Source: Halalkalicoccus subterraneus
GTDB taxonomy: Archaea > Halobacteriota > Halobacteria > Halobacteriales > Halalkalicoccaceae
Reading direction: 5' to 3'
DNA length: 64,000 bases
Assembly (NCBI RefSeq): GCF_003697815.1
Contig: NZ_RDQG01000022.1
Coordinates: forward strand, 1 to 64,000
Below are positions 26,270 to 43,885 of the stretch, one piece after another. The translations under genes and the position numbers were made by a program. Every line of letters starts with the position of its first letter. The stretch's first letter is position 1. The notes beneath the pieces are model-generated. The model was given only the letters and a program-made list of their open reading frames with translations. It was not told where the DNA came from and did not search any database.

Positions 26270-26587
26270 TCAGTCCTGTGCAGGGGCGTCCTGGCGCTCG
26301 GTCGCCTGCAGGATGAACGTCCGTTCGGGGGGCGGGGCGATCCGGAGTTCGATCTTCCGGATGAGTCGGTAGTACTTGCGATTTCCCCGTCGGTAGTGTT
26401 CGACGATTCCGCTCTCCTCGAGCGTCGAGAGGTGGTGGGCTGCCGTCTTCCCGTCCATCCCGACGGCCTCCGTGAGTTCGGAGACGTATCGTGGCCCGTG
26501 GGAGAGTTCGCGGATGATCCTCAACCGCGGCGTGCTCCCCAGCACGTCGATCAGTGACACGCCTCCTCGTTTGTGAGGTTTCATCAT
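26270..26587 (-). CDS. ArsR-family winged-helix regulator
   Basis: The 105-residue protein is a single winged helix: LIDVLGSTPRLRIIRELS, then RYVSELTEAVGMDGKTAAHHL as recognition helix, STLEESGIVEHYRRGN as wing turn, and KYYRLIRKIELRI. No metal-binding cysteines are visible, so metal sensing in the classic way is unlikely. It is divergent from the amphi-Trp gene and may control it or the coiled-coil gene behind it. Confidence 0.88.
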   Translation of the reverse strand: MMKPHKRGGVSLIDVLGSTPRLRIIRELSHGPRYVSELTEAVGMDGKTAAHHLSTLEESGIVEHYRRGNRKYYRLIRKIELRIAPPPERTFILQATERQDAPAQD

Positions 26588-26655: not shown

Positions 26656-26964
26656 ATGGCCAACGACATCGAGTTTCCGGACAAGAGCGATCACGGCCGA
26701 AAGACGATCACGAGCGGGTTTTTCGAGCGCGAGATCCGCCTCTCGGGCGACGAGACCGCGGCGTTTCTCCACAACCTCGCCGACGCCATCGAGAGCGACA
26801 CCTCGATTACGGTGTCGGGCAGCGACTGGGAGATCCCCTTCGAGTACCGCGAACCCATCGAGGTGGAAGTCGAGTTCTCGAAGAAGCGCGAGGGCGAACT
26901 CGAGATCGAAGTCGAGTTCGCCGAGGCCCACGGAAGCGAGGGGAGCGGCCTCAGCGTCGAGTAG
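26656..26964 (+). CDS. Amphi-Trp domain protein
   Basis: The 102-residue protein has the domain's features: ITSGFFEREIRLSGDETAAFLHNLADAI and a central SGSDWEIPFEYREPIEVEVEF with the single conserved tryptophan. Domain proteins of this type are small, acidic and widespread in haloarchaea, without assigned function. The start MANDIEFP at 26656 follows a GTTAAGT box about 27 bases upstream. The stop overlaps the GTG of the next gene by one base. Confidence 0.88.
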   Translation: MANDIEFPDKSDHGRKTITSGFFEREIRLSGDETAAFLHNLADAIESDTSITVSGSDWEIPFEYREPIEVEVEFSKKREGELEIEVEFAEAHGSEGSGLSVE

Positions 26965-28647: not shown

Positions 28648-30354
28648 TTACTCCTCCATCGAGAAGACGAGCAGCCTGTCGTCGCGCTTGCCCCGTCGGA
28701 GCCAGCCGCTGCCGCCGACCTGGATCGCGACGTACTGCTTTTCGGTGCCCGGATCGTACCAGCTGATCGGGTCGCCCGAGATCGGGGTCTCGCCGGCGTC
28801 GTACTCCCAGAGGCGCTCGCCGGACTCGCCGTCGTAGCCGACCATCTCGCCGTTCTGGTTGCCCGCGAACATCAGGCCGGTCTTGGTCGACATCGTGCCG
28901 CCCCAGAGGTAGACGTCGCTGTCGATCCAGTCCTGCCAGACGATCTCGCCCGTCAGCGGTTTCACCGCCGAGATCACGCCGATGTGGCCGTTGTAGCCGT
29001 CCGGGTGTGACTCGATCTCGTCCTCGAGGATGCCGCCCCAGTACTTCTTTCCGGCCTCGAACTCCTCGAAGCGCCACCACGCTTCTTGGGGCGAGTTGTG
29101 GAGCTTGTGATAGGAGATTCCCAGTTCGGGGTTGTAGGTGCCGGGCTGCCAGTCGTTGCCGCCCATCCCGCCGGGCATGAACGGCATCCGGCGTCCCTCG
29201 TCGATGTGCGGGATCATCCGGAACATGTTGAGCTGCTGGCACAGCGGCTCGCTCCGGACGAGCAGCTCGCCGGTCTCGGCGTCCGTCGTGTAGAGCCAGC
29301 CGGTCTTCCCCACCGAAACGGTGACGTCGCGTTCCTTTCCTCGTACTTCGACGTCCCGAATGACGATGCGGGGCATCGCCGAGTCGTAGTCCCAGACGTC
29401 GTGGGCCGATTCCTGGTGGAACCACTCGTGCTCGCCCGTTTCGAGGTCGAGACAGAGCGTCCCGATGCTGTTGCGGTTGGGGCCCGGCCGGACCGAGCCG
29501 TCGAAGTCCGGTCCGGGGTTGCCCATCGGCAAGTAGAGCTTGCCGCGTTCCTCGTCGACGGTCGCACCCATCCAGTTGGTGGTGGCCGACTGGTTGATGC
29601 TGTCGCCGACCCACTCGGTCTCGGGCGAGAGCAGCGTCGACCACTTCTCGTCGCCGGTCCCGGTGTCGATGGCAGTGTGGAAGCCACGTACCCCGTACTC
29701 GCCGCCGGCGCTGCCCGTAAAGAGGGTGCCCTCGTAGACCTGTGGGGCCCACGTCGCCGAATATCCGCGTTCGTGGTCGGCGGTGCTGTGATACCACTGC
29801 TCCTCGCCGGAGTAGCGATCCAGCGCGACGACGCCCGAGTCGAGGGTGGTCATGAAGACCTTGTCCTCGTAGACGGCGGGCCCGCGGTTGTTGTCGTCAC
29901 AACACAGTACCACGTCGTTTGGCACCGCGTAGGTGTAACTCCAGAGGACGTCGCCCTCGCGCGGGTCGATCGCCTTGATGTGGTTGGGCCCGTTCGACTG
30001 GTACATGATCGGCGGATCGCCCGGCACGATCAGGGGAGTGCCCTCCATGCTCGAACCCGATCCGACCGACAGCTCGTATTCGAGTTCGAGCTCCCCGACG
30101 TTCTCGGGAGTGATGATCTCACACGTCGTGTAACGGTGCTGTTCGTAGTTCCCGCCGTAGACGAGCCACGCTTCGGGGTTCTCCCCGCTCCCGCTGAGCA
30201 TCTCCTGCGTGACGTCCTTTTCGGGAATGCGGTCGATATCGTGTTGATGTGTGACGGATTTCTCCGGTGCACCAAGCACCCGATAGCCGTTGTCCGTCTC
30301 CCGTACGACTGTATCCTGTGCGGCCTTGACGGCCCTGTCTTCGTCTATTGACAT
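28648..30354 (-). CDS. PQQ-dependent (quinoprotein) dehydrogenase
   Basis: The 568-residue beta-propeller has the quinoprotein marks: vicinal disulfide C151-C152 in VVLCCDDNNRG, E104 in SMEGTPLIV, N279 in PMGNPGPDF, and catalytic-base candidate D322 in HDVWDYD. W-motif repeats such as GDVLWSY, GEEQWYH and GEHEWFH are present. It should oxidise an alcohol or sugar with PQQ. D324, two residues after the base, is the position that binds lanthanides in XoxF-type enzymes, but it also occurs in Ca-dependent glucose dehydrogenases. There is no signal peptide. PQQ synthesis genes are not in the window. Confidence 0.92.
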   Translation of the reverse strand: MSIDEDRAVKAAQDTVVRETDNGYRVLGAPEKSVTHQHDIDRIPEKDVTQEMLSGSGENPEAWLVYGGNYEQHRYTTCEIITPENVGELELEYELSVGSGSSMEGTPLIVPGDPPIMYQSNGPNHIKAIDPREGDVLWSYTYAVPNDVVLCCDDNNRGPAVYEDKVFMTTLDSGVVALDRYSGEEQWYHSTADHERGYSATWAPQVYEGTLFTGSAGGEYGVRGFHTAIDTGTGDEKWSTLLSPETEWVGDSINQSATTNWMGATVDEERGKLYLPMGNPGPDFDGSVRPGPNRNSIGTLCLDLETGEHEWFHQESAHDVWDYDSAMPRIVIRDVEVRGKERDVTVSVGKTGWLYTTDAETGELLVRSEPLCQQLNMFRMIPHIDEGRRMPFMPGGMGGNDWQPGTYNPELGISYHKLHNSPQEAWWRFEEFEAGKKYWGGILEDEIESHPDGYNGHIGVISAVKPLTGEIVWQDWIDSDVYLWGGTMSTKTGLMFAGNQNGEMVGYDGESGERLWEYDAGETPISGDPISWYDPGTEKQYVAIQVGGSGWLRRGKRDDRLLVFSMEE

Positions 30355-30368
30355 TGGTATGTGTTGTG

Positions 30369-31277
30369 TTATCGCAGTGTACTCGGTTTTCGCATCTCCT
30401 CAGTGATCCAGAACATGTCCTTGACGATCTCCTCCTGGTTGGTGATCATGATCGCGGTGCTCGCCGAGAGCGCCGCGGCCAGTTGGGAGTCGCTCAATGA
30501 CCCGCCCTCGGCGATCTCGTGGGCGGCCGTCGCCATGACGTACAGGCCACCGAGCATCGCTTTGACGTCCCAGTAGCCGTCGTCGAGGATCTCGTCGGTG
30601 ATGAGGAACTTCTTCTGCCAGAGATGGATGTCGAGGTTCTTGACCCAGAGCAGCGACCCGCCCATCGCGCGCTGCTGAAGCGGCGGGACGTCCTCGACGT
30701 TGAACTCCACCTCGTCGGGGATGTCCTTCGTGGGCGTCCACCGCGCGAGGCGATCGTTGTTGTTGACGACGTTCATCACCAGAACGGTCTGTTCGCGCTC
30801 GTCGAACCCGCACTCCTCGAGCGCGGCGGCGAGCGGCTCGGCCTGGATCAGCTCGTTGGCCGTTCCCTCGATGTGTTCGGGCGTAAAGCGCGGGAGGTTC
30901 GCCTCGACGCTGTCGAAAAAGCCCGTCTCGACCAGGTGATCGTAGATCGCCCAGCCGGGCTCGACGAGTTCGCGGTACAGCGCCTCCGGTTCGGTCTCCC
31001 CCCCGGGAATCCCCGCCTCGCGGACCTCCGAGAGGCGGTTGATCTGTGTCGACAGCTCCGCGAGCGCGTGCTCGAGGAGCTCGTTGTCGAGTTTACCCGT
31101 GAGGTCGTCCCGGATCGCCTCGCCCATCGAAGCGAACTCCGGGTCGGCGGTTACATCGATCGTCCCGCGTAGTTCCTCTATCGTCAACTCCTCGTTCGAT
31201 TCGCGACTGATTCCAAGATTCCTCGCTAACGCCTCTTGGTCCGCGACCGATACTTGAGGCCTGTTTACGTTTGCCAT
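30369..31277 (-). CDS. Unrecognised 302-residue protein paired with the quinoprotein
   Basis: I do not recognise this family. The protein is mostly helical and acidic, has no membrane segment or signal peptide and contains only one cysteine. Notable stretches are RFTPEHIEGTANELIQ, VLVMNVVNNNDRLARW, a basic-aromatic KNLDIHLWQKKFLITDE and MATAAHEIAEGG. It lies 14 bases upstream of the quinoprotein gene on the same strand, so they form an operon. A chaperone, cofactor-loading or electron-transfer adaptor role is possible, but this is inference. The start MANVNRP at 31277 is preferred over 31325. Confidence 0.8.
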   Translation of the reverse strand: MANVNRPQVSVADQEALARNLGISRESNEELTIEELRGTIDVTADPEFASMGEAIRDDLTGKLDNELLEHALAELSTQINRLSEVREAGIPGGETEPEALYRELVEPGWAIYDHLVETGFFDSVEANLPRFTPEHIEGTANELIQAEPLAAALEECGFDEREQTVLVMNVVNNNDRLARWTPTKDIPDEVEFNVEDVPPLQQRAMGGSLLWVKNLDIHLWQKKFLITDEILDDGYWDVKAMLGGLYVMATAAHEIAEGGSLSDSQLAAALSASTAIMITNQEEIVKDMFWITEEMRKPSTLR

Positions 31278-31541: not shown

Positions 31542-33722
31542 ATGGACGAAACGACGCTGGTCGTCAAGCCGATGGAGAAGCGCGCCGTTGGCGAACGTTT
31601 GGCGATGATAGCGAGTCCGACCCTCGAAGAGCTCGGTCTCGACCGGGGCGATTACGTCGCCATCGAGGGTTATGATGGGGGTCGGGCGGTCGCGAAAGTC
31701 CGTCCGAGTTTCAACGACACGCCCCCGGGGGCGATCCGCCTCGACGAGGACCTTCGTGGCGCGCTCGGCGTTTCGACCGACGACTCGGTGGTCGTCGAGG
31801 GGGCCACGGTTCGGCCGGCGGATCGGGTGACCGTCGCGCTGCCCGAGGACCTCCCGCTCGAAAAACACCCCCACGTTCGGATCCGGGCCGCGCTGGTCGA
31901 TCGTGTCGTCACGAGCGGGCAGACGGTCGTCGCCGCCGTCGAGGGGCCGGCCGCGAGCGAAGCCGAGTCCGTCCCCGTGCGGCTGGTCGCGACCGACCCC
32001 GCCGGATCCGTGCTCGTCGAGGATTGGACTCGGGTAACGGTCTCGGATACGTCCGCGAGCGACCTGTCGGTGGGTGGATCCGCCGGCCGTGATCCCGATG
32101 CGATCACCTACGACGACGTGGGCGGGCTCGAACGCGAGGTGACGCAGCTCCGGGAGATGACCGAACTCCCGCTTCGTCATCCCGACCTGTTCGACGCGCT
32201 CGGGATCGACCCGCCGCGGGGAGTACTCCTCCATGGCCCGCCCGGAACGGGAAAGACCCTGCTCGGGCGGGCTATCGCGACCGAGACCGAGGGCTACGTC
32301 CGGATCCTCTCGGCCTCGGAGCTGCTCGCGAGCCCCGCCGGCGAGACCGAGGGCCACCTTCGGGAGGTCTTTGAGGAGGCAGAGGAGAACGCCCCCGCGA
32401 TCCTCTTCGTCGACGAGCTCGACGCGATCGCCCCGAACCGCGAACGTGGCGAGGCCGACCGCCGCGGGGCCGCCCGACTGGCCTCGCTGCTCGACGGTCT
32501 CAGTGCCACGGAGCGCGTCGTCGTGATCGGGACGACCAACCGACTCGCGGACGTCGACCCCGCCCTGCGGCGACCGGGCCGCTTCGACCGCGAGATCGAG
32601 ATCGGCGTCCCCGACCGGGCGGGTCGCGAGGAGATCTTCGGGATCCACACCCGCGGGGTGGCCCTGGCCGAGGACGTCGATATCGGGGCGTACGCCGAGA
32701 GCACCCACGGCTTCGTCGGCGGCGACATCGAGAACCTGATCCGCGAGAGCGCGATGGCCGCGCTGCGGCGGGTCCGTCCCGACGTGGACCTCGATTCGGC
32801 CACGCTCGACCCTGCCGTGCTCGATTCGTTACGGATCAGGGACGACGACCTCAGGCGGGCGCTTCGGGGTATCGAGCCCTCGGCGCTGCGGGAGGTGTTC
32901 GTCGAACTGCCGGACGTGAGCTGGGACGACGTCGGCGGGCTGGAGGGGACGAAAGCCCGTCTTCAGGAGACCGTTCAGTGGCCGCTGGCCTATCCCGAGG
33001 CCTTCGAGCGGGTTCGACTCAGTCCCGCGACGGGTGTGTTGCTCTACGGGCCGCCCGGCACCGGTAAGACCCTGCTCGCGAAGGCCGTCGCCAACGAGGC
33101 CGACTCGAACTTCATCTCGATCAAGGGTCCCGAGCTGCTCGATAAGTACGTCGGCGAGAGCGAGCGCGGGGTCAGGGAGATCTTCGCAAAGGCAAGGGAA
33201 AACGCGCCCACGGTGGTGTTTTTCGACGAGCTCGACGCGCTGGCCGCCGAGCGTGGCGGCGGGCCCGGCGGCTCGAACGTCGGCGAGCGCGTGGTTTCTC
33301 AGCTTTTGACCGAACTGGACGGGTTGGAGGAACTGGAGAACGTGGTCGTGATCGCGACCACCAATCGTCCTGACCTGATCGACGACGCCCTGCTCAGGTC
33401 GGGGCGGCTCGACCGCCATATCCACGTTTCGGCCCCCGACGAGGAGGCGAGGCGGGAGATCTTCGCGGTTCACACGCGCGGGAAACCGCTCGCCGACGAC
33501 GTGGATCTCGACTGGCTCGCCGCCGAGACCGAGGGCTACGTCGGCGCGGACGTCGAGGCGGTCTGTCGGGAGGCCGCGACGGCCGCGGTTCGCGGATACG
33601 TGAACGACGGCGGATCCGTCGAAGGGATCTTCCTGACCTGCGCGGGCTTCGAGCACGCCCTCTCGGCGGTCGATCCGAGCGCGACCGACGGTCCCGGTCG
33701 GTTCGCCGACCGGTTCGAATAG
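31542..33722 (+). CDS. CDC48/VAT-type AAA ATPase, divergent paralogue
   Basis: The 726-residue protein has a CDC48 N domain (1-185) and two AAA modules. D1 has Walker A GPPGTGKT (232-239), Walker [12 protein letters not shown] (288-298) and RRPGRFDRE. Where canonical CDC48 has KYYGESE after SEL, D1 reads ASPAGETE. D2 has Walker A GPPGTGKT near 505, the usual [11 protein letters not shown] pore loop, and FFDELDALA. It should unfold or extract proteins. The altered D1 loop marks it as a non-canonical copy of the main archaeal CDC48. Confidence 0.92.
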
Positions 33723-33768: not shown

Positions 33769-35409
33769 ATGCGAAGCGCCACGGGTCCCCTGCTGTCGAT
33801 CGACCTCGACGAGCAAACCGCCGAGACGGAGTCGATCGATGACGTTCTCGACGCCTTCGTCGGCGGACGGGGCGTCGGGACGAAACTCGCCTACGACAGA
33901 GTACCGTTCGACGCCGATCCTCTCGGGTCCGAGAACCGTCTCACGTTCGCGGCCGGGCCGCTCCAGACCGCACGGACGAGCTTCACGGGACGGATGAACT
34001 GCACCGGTCTCTCGCCGCTTACCGATGGGATACTCTCCTCGAACGCGGGTGGTTTCCTCTCGCGGAACGCCGTCGCGACGGGCTACAGCGCCGTCGAGAT
34101 CGCGGGGGAAAGCGACGAGCTCCTGATCGTTCACGTCTCCGATACCGGCGTCGGGTTCGAACCCGTCCCCGAACTCGCGGGCGCGGCCGTCTCGGCGGTG
34201 AGCGAACACGTCGTTGGACGGGGCCTCGACGCCTCACACGTCGCCTGCATCGGTCCCGCCGGCGAGAATTTAGTGAGGTTCGCCTCGATCATGACCAGCG
34301 AAAGTCGGACCTTCGGCCGCGGCGGGCTCGGCGCGGTGCTGGGATCGAAGAACGTGAAAGCGATCACCTTCTCGGGCGACTCGGCACCCGAAACCGAGTT
34401 CCCCGCGGTCGCAAGCGATATCCACCGCGATGCCGCCGAGAGCGACCACGTGATGAAGCGCCAGGGTACCGCGAGCCTGACCGAATTCGCGAGCCAGGTC
34501 GGGGCACTGCCCACGCACTACTACTCGGAACTGGAGTTCGAGGGAAGCGACGGAATCTCCGGCGACCGGGTCGAGGAGAAGAAGTTCAGGAAGGGGACCT
34601 GCTCTGCGTGTGCCTTCGCCTGCAAACTCCCGACGCGCGACGAGGCAAGTGGGTTAGAAACCGAAGGACCGGAGTTCGAGACGGTGATGGCCTTCGGCTC
34701 GAACTGCGGGATCGATGAGATCACCTCGGTGATGAAATCGAACGACCTGTGCGACGAACTCGGCATGGACACCATCTCGTGTGGCGCGACGGTCGCGGCG
34801 TACCTCGAAAGCGAGGACGCCTTCGGCGACGCCGAACTGGTCCACGCCCTCGTCGAGAAAATCGCCCGCAGGGAAGGCATGGGCGACGTTCTCGCCGAGG
34901 GGATCGACCGAATCCACGACGAGCTGGGCGTCGAGAACTGGAGTTCGAAGGGGATGCCCTTCGCCGCCCACGACGGCCGGGCCCTCAACGGGCAAGGGCT
35001 GGCCTTCGCCACGTCGAACCGGGGTGCCGACCATCTCTACGGGGGGCTCTACACCTACGAATACCCGCTGGTCGAGAAGAGCGAGGCGCTCGACCCCGAG
35101 GGGATGGCGGGCAAACCCGAGAAATTGGTCGCATCCGAGAACCACAACGCGCTGCTTGACAGTGCCATCTGCTGTAAGTTCTCGCGGACCGTCCTGACCG
35201 ACAAGCGCCTCGCGACCCTGCTCGACGCCGAGTACGAACGGCTGCTGGAAACGGGCGCGCGCATCGTCGCCCTCGAACGACGGTTCAACAACGAACGCGG
35301 GTTCGACCGGAGCGACGACGACCTCCCCTACGAGCTTCCGGGATTCGAGGACGCACTCGACGAGTACTATCGGCTTCGCGACTGGAACCCGGACGGTACC
35401 GTCCCGTAG
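33769..35409 (+). CDS. AOR-family tungsten oxidoreductase, shorter paralogue
   Basis: The 546-residue protein has the cluster cysteines C278, C281 and C285 (CSACAFAC), and a fourth in ICCKF (C468 or C469). It also has TFGRGGLGAVLGSKN and FATSNRGADHLYGGL for pterin contacts. It is about 100 residues shorter than the AOR at 22121-24064, mainly in the middle and C-terminal part. The N-terminus has FVGGRGVGTKLAYD. The substrate is unknown. It sits beside a cupin gene and a three-gene operon of binding-protein-like genes. Confidence 0.92.
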   Translation: MRSATGPLLSIDLDEQTAETESIDDVLDAFVGGRGVGTKLAYDRVPFDADPLGSENRLTFAAGPLQTARTSFTGRMNCTGLSPLTDGILSSNAGGFLSRNAVATGYSAVEIAGESDELLIVHVSDTGVGFEPVPELAGAAVSAVSEHVVGRGLDASHVACIGPAGENLVRFASIMTSESRTFGRGGLGAVLGSKNVKAITFSGDSAPETEFPAVASDIHRDAAESDHVMKRQGTASLTEFASQVGALPTHYYSELEFEGSDGISGDRVEEKKFRKGTCSACAFACKLPTRDEASGLETEGPEFETVMAFGSNCGIDEITSVMKSNDLCDELGMDTISCGATVAAYLESEDAFGDAELVHALVEKIARREGMGDVLAEGIDRIHDELGVENWSSKGMPFAAHDGRALNGQGLAFATSNRGADHLYGGLYTYEYPLVEKSEALDPEGMAGKPEKLVASENHNALLDSAICCKFSRTVLTDKRLATLLDAEYERLLETGARIVALERRFNNERGFDRSDDDLPYELPGFEDALDEYYRLRDWNPDGTVP

Positions 35410-35412
35410 CCC

Positions 35413-35781
35413 CTATCGAGAGGTGTTCGCCTCCGCCGTCCGCGAGTCGCCCCAGGCCGGCTTTCCCCGCGGCGGGGCGAGGATTCCGACGCCGACGGCG
35501 GGCTCCTCGCCCCTGTTCTCCGCACCGTGGTGCTCGTGGCTCGAAAAGCGATAGGAGTCTCCCGGCTCCAAGAGCACCTCCTCGCCCTCGACGACGGCCA
35601 CCAGCCGTCCGCTGATCATATAGCCGATCTGTTCGTTGTCGTGGCGGTGGGCCGGGAGCGTCGCACCGGGTTCGACGCGCCAGTACTTCATCCCCGCGCG
35701 CTCGCCCGTCGCGAGGTCACCCAAAAACACGCCCTCGGCGACCTCCTCCGTGCCCGCTCCCTCGGTACTGATGCGTTCCAT
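35413..35781 (-). CDS. Cupin domain protein
   Basis: The 122-residue single-domain cupin has the first motif region PGATLPAHRHDNEQIGYMISG with two His and a Glu, and a second motif ending PGDSYRFSSHEHHGAENRG. The His/Glu set could bind one metal ion. Such proteins serve as sensors, isomerases or dioxygenases. It is divergent from the binding-protein operon and convergent with the AOR gene, leaving 3 bases between stops. Confidence 0.9.
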   Translation of the reverse strand: MERISTEGAGTEEVAEGVFLGDLATGERAGMKYWRVEPGATLPAHRHDNEQIGYMISGRLVAVVEGEEVLLEPGDSYRFSSHEHHGAENRGEEPAVGVGILAPPRGKPAWGDSRTAEANTSR

Positions 35782-35815
35782 GATACGAGTTCTCCTGAGT
35801 CGTGGGCCGAGTTCC

Positions 35816-35843
35816 TAATAAACATTCTGGAGGAATTTTTAAG
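35816..35843. promoter_or_regulatory. Back-to-back promoters of the cupin gene and the binding-protein operon
   Basis: Minus-strand TTTATTA (35816-35822) lies 35-41 bases ahead of the cupin start. Plus-strand TTTTTAAG (35836-35843) lies about 31 bases ahead of ATG 35871. The two boxes are only 13 bases apart, so one bound regulator could control both directions. Confidence 0.5.
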
Positions 35844-35870
35844 TGCGAAACCCACCATCGGTCTAGAGAC

Positions 35871-36761
35871 ATGGCAACTGGTGACAGGGTACGGCTGTTC
35901 CACCTCCCGTTTTCGTTCATGCTGCCCCAGCGGGTGGCCCACGAGCGGGGGTACTTCGAGGAGGCGGGGCTAGCGGTAGAGCTGATCGAGCGCGACCGGG
36001 AGTCGGTCGACGTGAAATACATCCCGAGCGAGTCGAGCCTGACGGAGGATCACGGGATCGACCTCTACCCGATCTGCAAGTGGGAATCGATCAAACGCAC
36101 CTGGGAGATGGGTGACGGACGGATCGTCGCGAAGGGCACGTTTGCCGACCTCCCCTACACCGTCTTCGTCCGGCCCGATTCCGACGTCACGGGGCCGAAG
36201 GACCTGGCGGGCGTCCCGGTTGCGGTCAACCGCCGAACCGGTCAGGAGTACACCGCGATGAGGGCCTTAGAGGAGCACATGGCACCCGAGGACGTGATCC
36301 TGAAGGGCTTCGGGATGCCGACCGAGCGCCTGCGCGCGCTCCGGGACGGCGAGGTCGAGGCCGCGATCCTACTCGACCCCCAGAGTACGCTTGCGGAACA
36401 CATGGGTTTTCGGGAAGTCCTCTCGTTCGACAACCACATGGGGATCGTCGGCGGCGAGGGTATCGATAGCGAGGTCCTCGACGCCTTCATGGCCGCCTAC
36501 GACCGGGCGGCCATGGAGATCAACGCGAACCCCGAGGTGTTCAGGGAAGACTACCTCGACATGCTCGAGAAGGACTCGCGGGTCGCACCGGGTCTCTTCG
36601 AGGACATCGACATGGGCGCGGTGCGCGCGGACCTCTCGGTGCCGCGCTACGAGGTGCCCGAACCTGCCGACCGGGCGGAGCTGGACGAACACTTGGAGTG
36701 GATGAAGGAGCGGGAACTGGTCGAGGAGAGCGCCGACATCGACCGGATCGTCGCCAATTAA
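35871..36761 (+). CDS. NMT1/THI5-like binding-protein-fold protein, first of three
   Basis: The 296-residue protein starts MATGDRVRLFHLPFSFMLPQ and has the type-II periplasmic-binding-protein pattern: VAHERGYFEEAGLAVELIE, the hinge GPKDLAGVPVAVN, and LRDGEVEAAILLDPQ. There is no signal peptide or lipobox, and no permease or ATPase gene nearby. It lacks the CCCFC motif of yeast Thi5. Cytosolic proteins of this fold include MqnA and MqnD and 4,5-dihydroxyphthalate decarboxylase, so an enzymatic role is possible. It is one base from the next gene. Confidence 0.85.
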   Translation: MATGDRVRLFHLPFSFMLPQRVAHERGYFEEAGLAVELIERDRESVDVKYIPSESSLTEDHGIDLYPICKWESIKRTWEMGDGRIVAKGTFADLPYTVFVRPDSDVTGPKDLAGVPVAVNRRTGQEYTAMRALEEHMAPEDVILKGFGMPTERLRALRDGEVEAAILLDPQSTLAEHMGFREVLSFDNHMGIVGGEGIDSEVLDAFMAAYDRAAMEINANPEVFREDYLDMLEKDSRVAPGLFEDIDMGAVRADLSVPRYEVPEPADRAELDEHLEWMKERELVEESADIDRIVAN

Positions 36762-36762
36762 C

Positions 36763-37752
36763 ATGGACGTCGAAACCCAACAGGCGGCGCTCGACGCCCT
36801 CCACGACGATCCGGGCGACTTGCCGGTGTTCCGGGCGCGCTTCGAGCACAACGGCAGCCCGCGGTACATGCTCTATACGATCAAGAAGTTCGGCTTCGAC
36901 CACGACCACGGCTTCCACCTCGACGTGCAACTGGTCTCGGACGAGTTGGAGGGCGGCGTCGAAACCGTCGAGGCGAAACTCCAAGATGGCGACGCCGACC
37001 TGATCGACATCGACTACATCTCGACTGCGCGCGAGCGCGCGGAGGGCGCGCCCATCGTCGCTTTCCACCCTTACGGCCGCACGGTCGGTGGGCTCGTCGT
37101 TCCCGAGGACAGCCCGATAGAAGGGTTGGAAGACCTGCGCGGAAAGCGCCTCGGGGTCGTCCGCCGGCTCGACAAGAACTGGATCCTCACGCGGGCGGCT
37201 TGTCGGGAGTTCCATGACTTTGACCCCGACGAGGAGGCGACGCCCGTCGAGGCGGGCTCGAAGGTCGGGCTCACCGAGATGCTTCAGGAGGGGGAAGTCG
37301 ATGGGATCTTTCAATTCTGGCCGATCGTCCCCGAGATAACGGAGACGGGTCCCTATCGCGAGGCGTTTCCCGTTTCGGACCTCGTTCAGCGCCTCTCGGG
37401 CACCGAGAACAAGCTCCCCATCTCGACGTTCCTCACGAGCGAGGAGTACTTCGAGGGGAACCCGCAGGCGATCCGGGGGTTCAAACGCGCCTACGGCGAG
37501 GCGGTCGACCAGCTGAGAAGCGACGACGAGCTCTGGGAGACCATCGGCGACGAACTGATGTACGAGAACGACCCCGCGGTGATCCGTGCCGTGCGGGACG
37601 GCTGGCGCGACATGGTCGTCGCCGACTGGGACGAGGAAACAGTGGAAGGAATGGGCCGACTGTTCGATCATCTCCTGGAAGTGGCGGGCGAGGAGGCCAT
37701 CGGCGTCGACCACCTTCCGGAGGGATTGTTCCGGCTGGAGGCCCCCGAATGA
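36763..37752 (+). CDS. NMT1/THI5-like binding-protein-fold protein, second of three
   Basis: This 329-residue protein has the same fold pattern: VETVEAKLQDGDADLIDIDYI, EGLEDLRGKRLGVVRRLDK, LTEMLQEGEVDGIFQFWP. Its N-terminus, MDVETQQAALDALHDDP, is hydrophilic and not a signal peptide. It starts one base after the first paralogue and overlaps the third by ATGA. The three proteins are only distantly related to each other, which suggests different ligands or subunits rather than recent duplication. Confidence 0.83.
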   Translation: MDVETQQAALDALHDDPGDLPVFRARFEHNGSPRYMLYTIKKFGFDHDHGFHLDVQLVSDELEGGVETVEAKLQDGDADLIDIDYISTARERAEGAPIVAFHPYGRTVGGLVVPEDSPIEGLEDLRGKRLGVVRRLDKNWILTRAACREFHDFDPDEEATPVEAGSKVGLTEMLQEGEVDGIFQFWPIVPEITETGPYREAFPVSDLVQRLSGTENKLPISTFLTSEEYFEGNPQAIRGFKRAYGEAVDQLRSDDELWETIGDELMYENDPAVIRAVRDGWRDMVVADWDEETVEGMGRLFDHLLEVAGEEAIGVDHLPEGLFRLEAPE

Positions 37753-38714
37753 GTTCCATTAGTTTCCAGCTCAACTGGGAGCCGAACGGTTTCCAGGCGC
37801 CCTATTTCCTCGCCCGGGAGCAGGGGTTCTACGAGGAGGAAGGGCTGGAGGTGGAGTTCGTCGAGGGCCACGGCTCGCCCTTCGCCGCCGAGGAGGCCGC
37901 CCGCGGCCGGGCCGATTTCGCGCTCGCGGGCGCGAGCGCGGTGCTCTCGGTGCAGAGCCAGGGCCACGAGCCGCTGGCGGTCGCCGCCGTCACCCAGAAG
38001 ACGCCCGCAGCAGTCTACACGCTTCGGGACGTCTTCGGCGAACCCTTGGAGGACCCGAAACAGCTCGCGGGCCGGACCGTCGCGCCCTCGGCGACCAAAA
38101 CACGAATCCTCGCCGCCCAGCTCCTCGAAGACGCGGGAATACGGGACGAAGTCAACCTCCTCGATGTGGATCCCCACACCCACCACCGCGTCGAACACCA
38201 GCTGCTCGACGGGTCGGTCGACGCCGCCGTCGGCGTCGTCACCAATGGTGTGGAACTCGAACGCGAACACGACCGAAAAGCCGACGAGCTACCCATCGGC
38301 GATTACCTCCCGATCTACGGGATGACGCTCGTGACGAACCCGGAGTTCGCCGAGTCGAACCCGGAGGTAGTCGAAGGATTCCTGCGCGCGACCGCCCGCG
38401 GATGGGCGGAGGCGACCGCCGACCCTGAGGCGGCGATCGACGCACTGGTCGCGCGAAACGCCACACTCGAACGCGACCGGGAGATCGAGCGGATCAAGTT
38501 CGAGACCGCCGCCGAGGACCTGCAGTTCACCGAGCACGTCCGCAGGGCGGGCTGGGGCAACCACGACGCCGCGCGGTGGGACCGCCTGGGTGAGACGCTC
38601 GCCGAGACGGATCTGCTGGAAGGGGCGGCCGATCCCGATGCAGTGTGGACGAACGAGTACCTCGACAGCGAGGCCCCGTCGATCGCCGAGTACGCAGACC
38701 GGATCGGTCGGTAG
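37749..38714 (+). CDS. NMT1/THI5-like binding-protein-fold protein, third of three
   Basis: The 321-residue protein starts directly with the fold (SSISFQLNWEPNGFQAPYF), then REQGFYEEEGLEVEF, LADF-type RADFALAGASAVL, VYTLRDVFGEPLEDP and LPIYGMTLVTNPEF. No signal peptide precedes it, so it is likely cytosolic. The regulator at 42620-43885 carries the same domain with matching blocks at the same spacing (LNWRPNG, FGEPL, TRIL, FPIYG, GWG). That suggests a common ligand. Confidence 0.87.
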   Translation: MSSISFQLNWEPNGFQAPYFLAREQGFYEEEGLEVEFVEGHGSPFAAEEAARGRADFALAGASAVLSVQSQGHEPLAVAAVTQKTPAAVYTLRDVFGEPLEDPKQLAGRTVAPSATKTRILAAQLLEDAGIRDEVNLLDVDPHTHHRVEHQLLDGSVDAAVGVVTNGVELEREHDRKADELPIGDYLPIYGMTLVTNPEFAESNPEVVEGFLRATARGWAEATADPEAAIDALVARNATLERDREIERIKFETAAEDLQFTEHVRRAGWGNHDAARWDRLGETLAETDLLEGAADPDAVWTNEYLDSEAPSIAEYADRIGR

Positions 38715-38783
38715 CGCCCGTCGAGTCGCGTCGGTTCTCCCGAGGACCCCCACTTATGCCCCGCCGCCGCGTCGGTGCCGAGC

Positions 38784-39797
38784 ATGCCGTTCGGTCTCCC
38801 GACGGAGCTGATCGCGCTCATCGCCTTTCTCGCCGGCGTCGTGCTGGTGATCGCGAGCGTCGAGACGTTCATCGAGGCGGTCGCTGAGAGCGCTCTCTCG
38901 ATCGGTCTCTCGGGGTTCTTTCTCACGGTCGTCCTCGCCGGAACCGATCTCGAGAACGCGATCCTCGGACTGGCGGCCGTCGCGGACGGACTCCCCGACC
39001 TCGCGATGGGCACCGTCTTCGGGGAGGCGCTGTTCGTGCTGGGTGCGGCCGTCGGGCTCGCGGGCGTGCTCACCCCCTTCGAGACCTCGGTGCCGCGGTC
39101 GTACCTCCTGCTCACCCTGCTCGCCCCGTCGCTCCTGTTCGCGCTCGCGCTCGACGGGACGCTCTCGCGGCTCGACGGGGCGATCCTCACGGGCTCGTTT
39201 CTCCCGCTTTTGGGGATCGTCTACGCCCTCGAACGCAATCGAGGGACGCGATACCTCTCGGCCGAGGAGGTCGAGGAGGTCCTCGAAGAGGAATCGAAAG
39301 AGGTGGACGACGAGGACGACCCCATAGAAGGCGACTCGCTTCGAGAGCGCTACGAGGGATGGTATCAGGTCGGGATCGCGCTCGTCGCCACCCTCGGCAT
39401 GACCGTCGGCTCGGAGCTCGCGGTGACGGGCGCGCGCGACCTGCTGTCGGTGTTGGGGATCTCCGGACTGGTCTTCGGCGCGACGGTCATGAGCTTCGTC
39501 GCCTCGCTGGAGGAACTGTTCCTGACCGTCGAGCCCGCCCGGCAGGGTCGTCCGCATCTGGGGGTGGGAAACGTCGTCGGAAGCGTCCTGTTCTTCGTGA
39601 CCGCGAACGCCGGCGTCCTCGCGCTCGTCGGCCCGATAGACACGAGCGGGACGGTCCTCACCGTCCACTGGCCCTTCTTCCTCGTGGCGCTCCTCTCGGT
39701 CGGGTTCGTTTTCCTTCGGGGTCGGGTCGGTCGTCCGGAGGGGTTCGCCCTGTTGGGGCTGTACGCGGCCTACTGGGGCGCGAACTACCTGCTGTGA
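38784..39797 (+). CDS. CaCA-type cation antiporter, first of a convergent pair
   Basis: The 337-residue membrane protein has about ten helices in two halves with an acidic loop between (VEEVLEEESKEVDDEDD). The repeats read VLAGTDLENAILGL and FGATVMSFVASLEELFLTVEPARQG, followed by GVGNVVGSVLF. These align with the alpha repeats of Na/Ca exchangers, but the GTSLPE core is altered to GTDLEN and ASLEEL. The transported ion is uncertain. ATG 38784 is taken; a GTG three codons earlier is possible. Confidence 0.85.
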   Translation: MPFGLPTELIALIAFLAGVVLVIASVETFIEAVAESALSIGLSGFFLTVVLAGTDLENAILGLAAVADGLPDLAMGTVFGEALFVLGAAVGLAGVLTPFETSVPRSYLLLTLLAPSLLFALALDGTLSRLDGAILTGSFLPLLGIVYALERNRGTRYLSAEEVEEVLEEESKEVDDEDDPIEGDSLRERYEGWYQVGIALVATLGMTVGSELAVTGARDLLSVLGISGLVFGATVMSFVASLEELFLTVEPARQGRPHLGVGNVVGSVLFFVTANAGVLALVGPIDTSGTVLTVHWPFFLVALLSVGFVFLRGRVGRPEGFALLGLYAAYWGANYLL

Positions 39798-39798
39798 G

Positions 39799-40992
39799 TC
39801 ACTCGCCGATGGGTACCCCGCCGAAGACGCTCAGCGCGATGACCCAGTAGGCGACGTACAGCCCGAGGAGTAACACGCCGTGCCAGCGTTTCACCTCGCC
39901 GCGGTACATGAAGTACGCCGACAGCGCGGTCACGATGACGATCGCCGGGAGGTGGAAGGTCAGGACCGACGGCGCGATGGTGACCGTGCTGACCAGTGTG
40001 AGCACGCCGATGTTGCCCGTCATCGAGAAGAGCACGCTCCCGATGACGTTGCCGACGCCGATCTCCGGCAGGCCACGGCGAACCGGCTCGATCGTCAGCA
40101 TGACGTCCTCGAAGGTGAGGATCAGCGTCAGGATCGTGGCACCGAAGACGGTCTCCTCGATGCCGAATCCCTCGATGACGACCTCCGAGCCCCCCTCCAA
40201 CAGTATCGCCGCGAAGACGACCCCCACGAGCGCGAAGACGGAGAGACCGATCCAGATCCAGCCGGATCGATTTCCGACCAGCCGGTCCTCGGGGATCTCG
40301 GAAAGCGGTTCGGGAAACGCCGCGCCGCCGTCGGGACGGACCTCCGTGCCGCCGTCCGGCTCGATCGCCGCCCCGAGTTCGGTGCTTCGGAAGACCGGTA
40401 CGTCGCGCCCGCGCTCGCGGACGATGAAGTAGGTGAAGCTCAGGACGAAAAATCCGAGCAACACGAGGCCGGGCACGAGCGTCAGCGTCCCCAGCATGAC
40501 GAAGGGGATCAAAAGCACTGGCGCCAGTGCGAACAGAACGATGTAGTCGTTCGGCAGGTCGACCGGGAACGGCCGGACGATCGCCGCGATCGCGAGCGTG
40601 AGGCCGATGATCGCCAGCCCGGTCCCGAGCGCGGTGCCGAGGGCGGCCCCTTCGAGTCCGCCCGAGGCGAGCACGAGTCCGAGGATCGTGTCGTCGAACT
40701 CGAAGCCGGTGAAGACGATCGCGAGTGCGAACAGTGACATCTTCATCCCGATCGCCGCGCGGGCGAGATAGCTGATCAGCTTCTCGACACAAACCGTCAG
40801 TAGCACTACCCCAAAGGCCAGAACGAGCACGGCACCGAGCAGCCCTTGCCCCTCGATGAACCCCTCGATCGCGCCCTCAATCCCACCCTCCTCACCCTCT
40901 TCGCCTTCCTCTTGGGCCGCCACGGGGACGGCGATCACCGAGGTCGCGAGCAGTACGACGAGCACCAACGTGACGAACCGTCGAGGTGACAT
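39799..40992 (-). CDS. CaCA-type cation antiporter with signal peptide, second of the pair
   Basis: The 397-residue protein starts with a Sec-type signal (SPRRFVTLVLVVLLATSVIAVPVAAQ) and a Glu/Gly-rich acidic stretch. Two helix sets follow with FTGFEFDDTILGLVLA and FGATILTLILTFEDVMLTIEPVRRG, then GVGNVIGSVLF. It is a paralogue of the opposing antiporter gene, whose stop is one base away, and is similarly altered in the ion-binding core. Co-location tail to tail suggests an old duplication with inversion. A TATA element lies just ahead. Confidence 0.84.
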   Translation of the reverse strand: MSPRRFVTLVLVVLLATSVIAVPVAAQEEGEEGEEGGIEGAIEGFIEGQGLLGAVLVLAFGVVLLTVCVEKLISYLARAAIGMKMSLFALAIVFTGFEFDDTILGLVLASGGLEGAALGTALGTGLAIIGLTLAIAAIVRPFPVDLPNDYIVLFALAPVLLIPFVMLGTLTLVPGLVLLGFFVLSFTYFIVRERGRDVPVFRSTELGAAIEPDGGTEVRPDGGAAFPEPLSEIPEDRLVGNRSGWIWIGLSVFALVGVVFAAILLEGGSEVVIEGFGIEETVFGATILTLILTFEDVMLTIEPVRRGLPEIGVGNVIGSVLFSMTGNIGVLTLVSTVTIAPSVLTFHLPAIVIVTALSAYFMYRGEVKRWHGVLLLGLYVAYWVIALSVFGGVPIGE

Positions 40993-41014
40993 CGAACTCG
41001 GATATGGTTGTAGT

Positions 41015-41026
41015 TATCATATAACC
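41015..41026 (-). promoter_or_regulatory. TATA element of the second antiporter gene
   Basis: Minus-strand GGTTATATGATA is centred about 28 bases upstream of ATG 40992, the leaderless spacing. Confidence 0.5.
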
Positions 41027-41154
41027 CACGCATCGTGTACGAATGTTCATGGGAAATCTGTATACGGTACCGGCGATGTCTGAGCAGACGGATCCGCCCG
41101 AACCGGACCCGTCGCGGCGGCGGTCTATTTGTGGGTTCGGCGTCGATAGCGGGT

Positions 41155-41583
41155 ATGAACGCTGTCGATCACATCAACGTCGACGTGAACGATCTGGCGA
41201 ACTGCTACGAGTTCTACCGCGAAACCCTTGATTTGGAACTGCTGCGCCCGCCCGAGGACTTCCAGGGGGATCACGCCATGTTCCGGGTCGGCAGTACGGT
41301 GGTAACGCTCGCCGAGACGGGCCGTGCCGACGCGTGGGGCGAGGTCGGTCTCGACCATCCGTTGGACAAGGCGCACATCGCCTTCGACGCGTCCCGCGAG
41401 GAGTACGACGCGCTTTCGAAGGAACTCGATGGGCAGTTCCCCAAACAGGGCCCCTACGACTGGGGGGAGTTCGAGGGGTTTTACTTCCTCGACCCGGACG
41501 GCAATCTGCTCGAGGTCATCACCTACGACCCGCCTGCGGGCGAGCGCGAACGACCACTGTTGACCCACGACGACGTCGAGTGA
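41155..41583 (+). CDS. VOC-fold (glyoxalase/dioxygenase superfamily) protein
   Basis: The 142-residue protein has the paired beta-alpha-beta-beta-beta units: MNAVDHINVDVNDLANCYEFY with the first metal-ligand-type His, then HIAFDASREEYDAL, and FEGFYFLDPDGNLLEVITYDP with the final Glu. It could be a lyase, dioxygenase or isomerase. No substrate can be named. It starts at 41155, since upstream in-frame codons are not protein-like. The stop is one base from the convergent RCK gene. Confidence 0.88.
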   Translation: MNAVDHINVDVNDLANCYEFYRETLDLELLRPPEDFQGDHAMFRVGSTVVTLAETGRADAWGEVGLDHPLDKAHIAFDASREEYDALSKELDGQFPKQGPYDWGEFEGFYFLDPDGNLLEVITYDPPAGERERPLLTHDDVE

Positions 41584-41584
41584 G

Positions 41585-42334
41585 CTACAGCGACTCGGTG
41601 ACCTGCTCGCCGCTGACGACCTCCGGGATGATCACCTCGTCGGCGCCGGCCCGCCGGGCTAGCGGTTCGTACATCGCGTCGCCGACCCGGACGACGAGGC
41701 GCACGGTCGGCGCGATCTGGCCGGCGGTGATCGCCGTCTGGATGTTCGCGTTCGAGTCGTCGACGGCGGTCACGAGCGTGCGCGCCCGCTCGATGCCCGC
41801 CTCTCGGAGCGTTTCCTCGCGCCGGGCGTCACCCTGAAGCGCCAGGACGCCCGCCCCCAGCGCCCGCTCGAACTCCGTCTCGTCGAGTTCGATCACGACC
41901 ACGCCGTCGCCGTTGCCGTCGACTCGCTCGGCGATCGTCTGGCCGAACATGCCGTATCCGCAGATGATCACGTGATCCTCCAACTCGTCGATCGATCGGT
42001 TCGTTTGCATGTATCTGAGTTCCTCCTGCATCCGCCCGCCGAACGCCGCCGAAAGCGCCGTCTCGCCGACCCAAAGGCCGGTGACGACGAGTCCAACGGT
42101 CACCAGAACGGCGTATGCCTTCGTCGCGGTTTCCGGTCCGTCGGCTCCCTCGAAGTGCAACTCGACGCTCGTGAGGTCGACGAGCCAGAACGCCGCCTCG
42201 ACGACGCCGACGCCGCCGAGAAGCACGAAACCGGCGACTCCGGCGACCACGACGCCCGCGAACGCCGCGAGCGGGACCACGGCCCGCCGGAGCAGCGGCC
42301 GGCTCGCGACGACGGCGATGATCGAACATGTCAC
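41585..42334 (-). CDS. Channel-like membrane protein with RCK/TrkA-N domain and unusual pore
   Basis: Taking the GTG at 42334, the protein has 249 residues: two membrane helices flanking a pore-like loop, then an RCK domain with DHVIICGYGMFGQTIAERV (dinucleotide fold) and VIELDETEFE. In Kch-type channels the loop reads T-x-T-T-x-GYGD. Here FWLVDLTSVELHFEG has no GYG. Either the pore is degenerate or the ion differs. An ATG at 42412 is an alternative start. The 285 bases from 42335 to 42619 hold no other gene, only AT-rich TTATTTAAC and TATAG words. Confidence 0.78.
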   Translation of the reverse strand: MTCSIIAVVASRPLLRRAVVPLAAFAGVVVAGVAGFVLLGGVGVVEAAFWLVDLTSVELHFEGADGPETATKAYAVLVTVGLVVTGLWVGETALSAAFGGRMQEELRYMQTNRSIDELEDHVIICGYGMFGQTIAERVDGNGDGVVVIELDETEFERALGAGVLALQGDARREETLREAGIERARTLVTAVDDSNANIQTAITAGQIAPTVRLVVRVGDAMYEPLARRAGADEVIIPEVVSGEQVTESL

Positions 42335-42619
42335 AAGTTCACACTCCACACGAAGACATACAAATCTGTCCGTTCCGTCAGAGTTTGCTTCGGGCCGAAT
42401 ACCCCGTTTCACGGTGTCGATTTCGCCCGGCGAGAGCGCCTGAGTGGAATGGCCGTTATTTAACCTATTCTTTCGTATAGTTCATATGGGACCTCTGATT
42501 GCTGAGTGGCAGTTACGGGGTTCATACACTCTCTTCGGGAGGTCGCCCACTGATCTCATCAGTGGCTGGCTCGCAGTCGTTCGTACCAACGTCTCTTCGC
42601 GCGATCTAATCGACGCTGA

Positions 42620-43885
42620 TCACGCGACGTCGCCCTCTGCAAGCAGACCACCCTGTTCGAGCGCCGTCCGCAGGCGCTCCCACGTTTCGGCGTCCTGTCG
42701 GCCCCAACCGTGTTCCGCGACCGCCTCACTTCCGCCGAACTCGCTGTTGGCTTCCGTAAACGTCCGGACGATCCGGTCGGGTGAACACCCTGCTCGCTCC
42801 GCGATCCCTGCGGCCGCGGCGCTCGACTCGGGGGCCGCCGCCCAGCCGGCGATCGTTCCGGTGAGAAACGCCTCGAGAGCGTCCCCGCGATCGGCGAGCG
42901 TCCCCTCGTGGACGACGAGCGTCGGCCCGTAGATCGGGAAGTGGTCGGCGACCGCGAGCGTATCGACGGTCATTCCTCGTTGCTCCAGTTGGCGGGGATC
43001 GGAAAACGATCCCGTGACGACATCGACCTCGCCTGCGAGCAGGGCGTCCTGCTCCTCGCCGGCCGTATCCACGATCCGAACCGACCCGTCGAGGGTGACC
43101 TGGTTCACGAACAGCCGTCCGAGGATCCGCGTCTCGGAACGTGCGGGCATGCCGATCCGCCGCTCGCGTAGTTGGCCGACGCCGGTCAGGGGCTCGCCGA
43201 ACGTTTCGCGCACGGTGTAGAGGACGGCCATCGCGCGCTGGTAGGCGACCGCGATCGGAACCACCGGCGCGCCGCCCGCCCGCGCCCGACTCACCGTTGC
43301 CGCACCGACCAGCCCCACATCCGCCTCGCGTGCCCGGACGGCTTCGAGCGCCCGGCGGGACCCCTCGTAGTGCTCGAATCGAACGTCGGATCCCGATTCG
43401 CCGTACCGTTCGTCGCGGCGGGCGGCATAAAAGGGCAGGTGCAGCCCGTTCGGCCGCCAGTTCAACCCGAGGACGAGGCCGTCATTCGACTCGTCGGCAG
43501 CTCTACTGCTTCGTGCGACGCCCCATCCCTCGCGCGCTCGCTCCAGCAGTCCCCTCGCTCGCTGTCGATAGACCGTCCGCACCGCGGCGTCGAGATCCGT
43601 AGAGACGTCCCACGCGGTCGGCGGTCGTCCCGGGCCCTCACCGCGGACCGTGGTTCGATCGACCAGATCAGCCGATTCGAGGTGTCCGACCGCCGTCGTC
43701 AGCGCGCCGCGGCTCAGTCCGGTCCCGATTCGGAGCGTGAGCTCCGTCGCCGGCTCTTCCGTGAACTCCGTCCGGAGGTGAAGAAAGGTGAGCACGCGGG
43801 CGGGCTCCTCGCCGAGTCCGAGCGCCAGCCGGCTGATCACCGCCTCGTCGTTCCCGTCGAGCGCTCGGAACTCTCGCGTGCGCAT
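42620..43885 (-). CDS. Helix-turn-helix regulator fused to an NMT1/THI5-like binding domain
   Basis: Residues 14-96 form a winged helix (LTFLHLRTEFTEEPATEL, GLSRGALTTAVGHLESADLVDR). After a helical linker (97-135), residues 137-421 are a binding-protein domain: LGLNWRPNGLHLPFYAARR, READVGLVGAATVS, VRETFGEPLTGVGQL, HFPIYGPTLVV and HGWGRQDAETWERL. Each block matches the third gene of the 35871-38714 operon. This is a one-component regulator that probably binds the same ligand in the cytosol and controls that operon (inference). Confidence 0.88.
   Translation of the reverse strand: MRTREFRALDGNDEAVISRLALGLGEEPARVLTFLHLRTEFTEEPATELTLRIGTGLSRGALTTAVGHLESADLVDRTTVRGEGPGRPPTAWDVSTDLDAAVRTVYRQRARGLLERAREGWGVARSSRAADESNDGLVLGLNWRPNGLHLPFYAARRDERYGESGSDVRFEHYEGSRRALEAVRAREADVGLVGAATVSRARAGGAPVVPIAVAYQRAMAVLYTVRETFGEPLTGVGQLRERRIGMPARSETRILGRLFVNQVTLDGSVRIVDTAGEEQDALLAGEVDVVTGSFSDPRQLEQRGMTVDTLAVADHFPIYGPTLVVHEGTLADRGDALEAFLTGTIAGWAAAPESSAAAAGIAERAGCSPDRIVRTFTEANSEFGGSEAVAEHGWGRQDAETWERLRTALEQGGLLAEGDVA

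Follow-up and report, generated by a model that had tools for sequence, protein, structure and literature searches.

The 64,000-nt stretch of Halalkalicoccus subterraneus DNA analysed here (the window) carries three adjacent genes, designated A, B and C, for PF09084 (NMT1/THI5-like) proteins that lack an export leader. Together with a divergent cupin gene (CUP) and a gene for a VOC protein, they form a conserved haloarchaeal module. The gene for an alcohol dehydrogenase (ADH) dependent on pyrroloquinoline quinone (PQQ) lies 5.5 kb upstream of A and points to the likely ligand, a connection that was not made in the preliminary description of this DNA. We interpreted CUP-A-B-C-VOC as the cytosolic part of a system that supplies the haloarchaeal PQQ-dependent ADH with its cofactor, with a probability of roughly 0.58. 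The six genes named in the preliminary description were found where it had placed them, and belonged to the families it had given (Table 1).

Module loci were collected from 84,980 species genomes, scanned with an alignment of B whose patterns favour close relatives; genes in these relatives were codon-score calls made in this analysis. The scan gave 36 loci, all haloarchaeal and from about a dozen genera, a result that does not argue against bacterial homologs. A, B and C were consecutive in 34 of the 36, far above chance, and this answered the question of conserved linkage raised in the preliminary description. The divergent cupin gene and the VOC gene were each present in 33 loci. On the other hand, the AOR-family aldehyde oxidoreductase (AOR), previously counted as a member of the module, was near it in only seven and was rejected as a core partner. 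The core therefore consists of CUP-A-B-C and VOC, without AOR. An AOR or an aldehyde dehydrogenase, in some cases of the NAD type, stood beside the module in 11 of the 36 loci, and the aldehyde oxidoreductase is interchangeable. The regulator gene (REG) was near the module in 7/36 loci, and ADH was no more than about 10 kb from B in 12/36. In Haloplanus (L169, L171), B was tandem-duplicated to give the order A-B-B-C.

Likely metal-site residues were kept in the cupin, as judged from a 43-sequence alignment, and in the aligned VOC proteins. The compact bidirectional promoter that the cupin gene had been said to share with A proved to be real. Its TATA elements lie back to back, at 35818-35822 for the cupin gene and 35836-35842 for A, and such a pair, spaced 14-16 bp, was present in 44 of 48 CUP/A intergenic regions. 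The A mRNA is probably leaderless, because the start codon (35871) lies about 30 bp past the TATA element. The palindrome in this promoter was considered as an operator for REG and rejected, since it equals the two back-to-back core promoters.

The most specific clue to the ligand came from B. Among solved structures, B matched 9b1u, 9b1v and 9ooz at E 1e-28 (profile 1.5e-30), and the next match was at 1e-4 or worse. According to their PDB titles, these are PqqT with PQQ, PqqT with PQQ and Gd3+, and PqqT Y161W with PQQ; PMC12828617 also names 9B1V as PqqT. The homology spans almost the full length of B. Residues D137-K138-N139-W140 and F185-W186 of B are invariant, and in the sequence alignment F185 and W186 fall on Y161 and W162 of PqqT. 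The D-K-x-W motif was invariant across archaeal B orthologs and bacterial homologs. Its lysine (PqqT chain residue 115) would correspond to K142, if a 27-residue leader is counted. K142 is the residue engineered for metal binding (PMC12828617).

The bacterial homologs of B are on plasmids and about 26-35% identical to it. All four of the loci read (in Phaeobacter, Shinella, Tateyamaria and Sinorhizobium) had a PQQ-dependent methanol/ethanol dehydrogenase gene adjacent or within about 6 kb, together with ATP-binding cassette (ABC) genes, and in Shinella pqqABCDE was also close. The four bacterial homologs examined carry signal peptides. In contrast, the sequences of A, B and C open with the first strand of the fold, and neither a leader nor a lipobox precedes it in any of 15 A, 15 B and 45 C orthologs, which bears out their earlier description as proteins without signal peptides. 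The PqqT-like sequence and the missing leader identify B, by sequence criteria, as a PqqT relative without export leader.

A and C are less close to PqqT. The AlphaFold model of A (pLDDT 86), one of two proteins for which structures were predicted, has a type II periplasmic-binding-protein fold nearest to Thi5, FAMP-binding protein and SsuA, with PqqT only at rank 32. The single cysteine of A, C69, was invariant in 15 orthologs, as was the lone cysteine of B in its orthologs; C has none. The solved structures nearest to C are FAMP-binding protein and Thi5. A Thi5-type function for C was nevertheless rejected, on account of the missing cysteine and the synteny with PQQ genes. Membership of the three proteins in MqnA/MqnD, named in the preliminary description as cytosolic enzymes of this fold, was rejected, as no model of these families matched in Pfam and NCBIfam scans. 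Other leader-less proteins, 28-30% identical to A, were seen at L066:9719-10627, L067:9595-10560 and L069:9268-10221, inside complete ABC operons that encode a binding protein as well (from family PF13379 in L066). They are another example of an importer accompanied by a cytosolic paralog of binding proteins.

The preliminary description had called A, B and C orphan cytosolic paralogues with no ABC genes beside them. In the window this was correct: no ABC genes were found beside A-B-C, and no substrate-binding protein (SBP) of the importer type in the assembly (95% complete). In close relatives, the island contains an importer, adjoining REG, that consists of an SBP, two permeases and an ATPase. 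The SBP is a lipoprotein with a leader for twin-arginine translocation (Tat) and a lipobox, unlike A, B and C, which stand leader-less beside it. Matching ABC genes elsewhere were among the findings that the preliminary description had named as refuting it; those in the relatives refuted the term orphan, and not the term cytosolic. The importer set shares the island with the module in three genera. In Natronolimnohabitans the island ADH-ADHp-CUP-A-B-C-VOC-SBP-PERM1-PERM2-ATPase-REG is contiguous (ADHp being the ADH partner), and in Natribaculum the same full island is interrupted by one CDC48-type gene. Since relatives carry the importer beside REG, its absence here is a loss, exactly between TrkA and REG.

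The importer SBP was found in 49 genomes. ADH was present in 47 of them, and within 16 kb in 40 of the 47. The ADHs it accompanies belong to quite different clades (33-96% identity). C was 33-39% identical to this SBP and 34-37% identical to the sensor domain of REG, which agreed with the earlier statement that the regulator carries the same fold. The three make up one subfamily, with 30-39% identity among them. The N-terminus of REG matched the MreA regulator model weakly, below the cut-off. Another binding-protein cluster of this genome (C16) was rejected as the missing importer, as it comes with ABC genes of its own and shares only 24% identity with C. ABC genes near the Natrialba loci, which appear phosphate transporter-like, were left out of the counts.

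The best PDB match of the ADH was the quinoprotein ethanol dehydrogenase 6zcv (E 1e-58). The beta-propeller, the vicinal CC pair, the active-site E and N and the lanthanide-type W-D-Y-D motif were present, the last in all ADHs checked. At almost all of the haloarchaeal ADH loci examined, a gene for ADHp (about 300 aa) adjoins ADH. In some lineages the protein has a Tat-like RRxFLK start, and in the window genome and others this start is degenerate; ADHp is possibly a Tat hitch-hiking partner. The location of the ADH is therefore uncertain, and probably differs between lineages. One haloarchaeal clade of PQQ-ADHs carries an N-terminal cupredoxin domain (L127:11107-13203), and a Tat-exported cupredoxin is encoded beside other PQQ-ADHs (L151:3246-4367); cupredoxin is the probable electron acceptor of these enzymes. 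A Tat-exported fusion of cupredoxin with a glucose/sorbosone dehydrogenase (PF07995), seen at L126:15557-17611 between an ABC importer and a PQQ-ADH, is likely another PQQ enzyme in the island.

Co-occurrence was examined in 392 order-level genomes, with B and ADH both called at E <= 1e-60. B was present in 51 and ADH in 73. ADH was found in 48 of the 51 genomes with B, compared with 25 of the 341 without (p 3e-39). At the genus level, the numbers were 14/15 with B and 7/80 without (p 8e-11). The 73 ADH genomes comprised 26 with B and importer, 23 with B only, 21 with importer only and 3 with neither (one of them incomplete). The presence of B or importer predicted ADH with very few exceptions (70/75 versus 3/317). 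Mutual replacement of B and importer reached p 0.004 overall and 0.29 within the main ADH clade, and is therefore no more than a lead.

PqqC was not found in any of the 40 ADH/B genomes tested, by a search that was positive on Sinorhizobium pSymB (E 5e-129). These cells seem not to make PQQ by the known route. The open-licence papers searched gave no description of how haloarchaea handle PQQ.

In the complete form of the proposed system, the Tat-lipoprotein and the ABC importer would take up PQQ, either as such or as a metal-PQQ complex, into the cytosol. There B would hold PQQ and hand it to the dehydrogenase, and C would bind the imported compound, which REG would sense with a third copy of the SBP/C domain. 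The cupin and the VOC protein, with metal sites intact, may process the ligand or its adducts, and AOR (elsewhere the aldehyde dehydrogenase) would oxidise the aldehyde made by the ADH. The homology, the missing leaders, the synteny, the co-occurrence, the linkage of importer and REG to ADH and the negative PqqC search are observations. From them we infer that PQQ is the ligand, in which direction it is transferred, that it is sensed, and what A, the cupin and the VOC protein do. A-B-C may carry PQQ, or they may make or modify it.

Several points weigh against this proposal. The main difficulty is that 23 ADH genomes, the window genome included, have A-B-C without a recognised importer. A-B-C are therefore not simply downstream of the importer, which leaves two alternatives: a further importer, or A-B-C that themselves make or remodel the cofactor. 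Thiamin-precursor binders, and not PqqT, come nearest to C and the SBP, and PQQ binding by B and C is predicted from homology and context. The co-occurrence statistics ignore kinship (no tree was used), metagenome-assembled genomes can lack genes, and in G051 and G225 B was present without an ADH at the threshold. The search with the PqqE model gave only sub-threshold radical-SAM matches, and a divergent PQQ pathway may exist. A cytosolic ADH as the general explanation for A-B-C was rejected, as A-B-C also occur with Tat-like ADH partners (G101, G135, G071 and Haloplanus).

Synthesis rather than transport is one alternative. A-B-C, the cupin and the VOC protein would then act as enzymes, making or remodelling the quinone cofactor of the dehydrogenase by an alternative route, with the importer as the other supply. 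We regarded this as unlikely, and its more specific form, a new archaeal route that makes or converts a PQQ-type quinone cofactor with binding-protein-fold enzymes, the importer being an alternative supply, as a little less credible. The same general fold is enzymatic in Thi5 and MqnA/MqnD, two core partners (cupin and VOC) are metal-site proteins of oxygenase-type families, and A, and also B, has an invariant lone cysteine. The missing PqqC (0/40) and the replacement of importer by B across the 73 genomes (p 0.004) point the same way. That replacement, on the other hand, follows lineage and loses significance in the main ADH clade (p 0.29), and the closest relative of B is a carrier, not an enzyme. 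It also counts against synthesis that no enzyme is known that uses such proteins to build PQQ from a free precursor.

The ligand might also be a metal and not PQQ. Importer, C and REG would in that case handle a lanthanide or its chelate, and A-B-C would be metal-chelate carriers for a lanthanide-type ADH. Lanthanide would be the main alternative ligand because of PedA1A2BC, the ABC transporter of the ped cluster of Pseudomonas putida. Growth at low La3+ depended on this transporter, and the conclusion drawn was that it takes lanthanide up into the cytoplasm (PMC6839425). The W-D-Y-D motif, the PqqT crystals with PQQ and Gd3+, and the Na/Ca exchangers that recur near ADH and REG are in agreement with a metal. 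This explanation is as doubtful as the preceding one, as B is homologous to a PQQ binder. The known PF09084 proteins bind small organic molecules, and the binding of free lanthanide would need acidic pockets. More doubtful is an organic ligand, either a substrate or product of the alcohol oxidation or a precursor of thiamin, with the ADH linkage reflecting a shared catabolic pathway. The nearness of C, SBP and REG to FAMP- and thiamin-binding proteins and Thi5 fits such a ligand, as does the AOR or aldehyde dehydrogenase beside the module. B is PqqT-like, however, and one and the same importer goes with ADHs 33-96% identical, for which a common substrate is unlikely and a common cofactor likely. 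It is very improbable that A, B and C are ordinary exported ABC binding proteins whose leaders were missed. Public annotation labels all three as ABC transporter substrate-binding proteins, but no ortholog examined has a leader, and the island SBP and the bacterial B homologs do have one.

Table 1. Features of the Halalkalicoccus window
Feature	Position	Strand	Characteristics
ArsR-like small helix-turn-helix (HTH) gene	26270-26587	-	divergent from Amphi-Trp-domain gene
Amphi-Trp-domain gene	26656-26964	+	
Second AOR-family gene	22121-24064	-	
ADH, PQQ-dependent	28648-30354	-	PF01011, E 3e-49; no export leader
ADHp, ADH partner	30369-31277	-	all-helical; no Pfam family or solved fold matched
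CDC48-type AAA ATPase gene	31542-33722	+	close to ADH/ADHp
AOR-family aldehyde oxidoreductase	33769-35409	+	PF02730 and PF01314 (AFOR_N and AFOR_C domains both present); optional module neighbour
Cupin (CUP)	35413-35781	-	PF07883, E 5e-19; metal site H45, H47, E50, H85; divergent from A
Bidirectional promoter	35782-35870		between CUP and A; back-to-back TATA elements
Gene A	35871-36761	+	296 aa; PF09084, E 2e-9; leader-less
Gene B	36763-37752	+	329 aa; PF09084, E 3.5e-10; leader-less PqqT relative
Gene C	37749-38714	+	PF09084, E 1e-36; leader-less; paralogue of importer SBP and REG sensor domain
Na/Ca-exchanger gene	38775-39797	+	between C and VOC gene
Na/Ca-exchanger gene	39799-40992	-	between C and VOC gene
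VOC protein	41155-41583	+	PF00903; conserved H6, H74, E120; core module partner
TrkA-REG interval	42413-42619		empty here; SBP, PERM1, PERM2 and ATPase in close relatives (L050 16642-19998, L137)
Regulator (REG)	42620-43885	-	N-terminal HTH-type region; PF09084 sensor, residues 149-353, E 1e-20

Several neighbouring genes recur in other loci. AOR homologs similar to the second AOR-family gene are near the module in L055, L058 and L061. Na/Ca exchangers recur beside PQQ-ADH and REG (L122, L124, L162, L172), and are a possible metal supply for the dehydrogenase. The ArsR-like/Amphi-Trp pair was seen near PQQ-ADH or REG in many loci, and the CDC48-type gene in Natribaculum and Halomarina (L146, L159).

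The module offers concrete candidates for PQQ supply in haloarchaea: an importer, carriers in the cytosol that resemble PqqT, and a regulator that has the binding domain of the importer. Three paralogs (outside, inside and on the regulator) probably have a ligand in common, and through them its identity is directly testable. The results also point to lanthanide-type ADHs in archaea, possibly cytosolic in some lineages; according to PMC6839425, the lanthanide enzymes known in 2019 were periplasmic.

Among known systems, Thi5 and the FAMP-binding protein ThiY resemble C, the SBP and the A model in being their nearest solved structures. Thi5 has a Cys-rich metal motif. The cysteine-free C is without it, and its synteny is with PQQ, not thiamin, genes. 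MqnA and MqnD are cytosolic proteins of similar fold that act in cofactor synthesis, but A, B and C match none of their family models. The ADH resembles XoxF/PedH in its beta-propeller, CC pair and W-D-Y-D motif, and differs in the missing leader and in having an all-helical partner, whose start is Tat-like in only some of the lineages.

PqqT of Methylorubrum extorquens AM1 (9b1u, 9b1v, 9ooz) is attributed to Ho and Cotruvo 2019 in PMC12124388. B resembles it in near full-length homology, in the D-K-x-W and aromatic-W motifs, and in having bacterial homologs beside PQQ-dehydrogenase genes. B, with its predicted PQQ binding, differs in having no signal peptide and in being one of three adjacent leader-less paralogs accompanied by cupin and VOC proteins. 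Like the bacterial ped/xoxF clusters (PedA1A2BC type, PMC6839425), the archaeal set combines a PQQ-ADH with an ABC permease, ATPase, binding proteins and a regulator. The archaeal set is without the cytochrome PedF and pqq genes; its importer uses a PF09084 Tat-lipoprotein, its regulator carries the same binding domain, and it has the cytosolic A-B-C.

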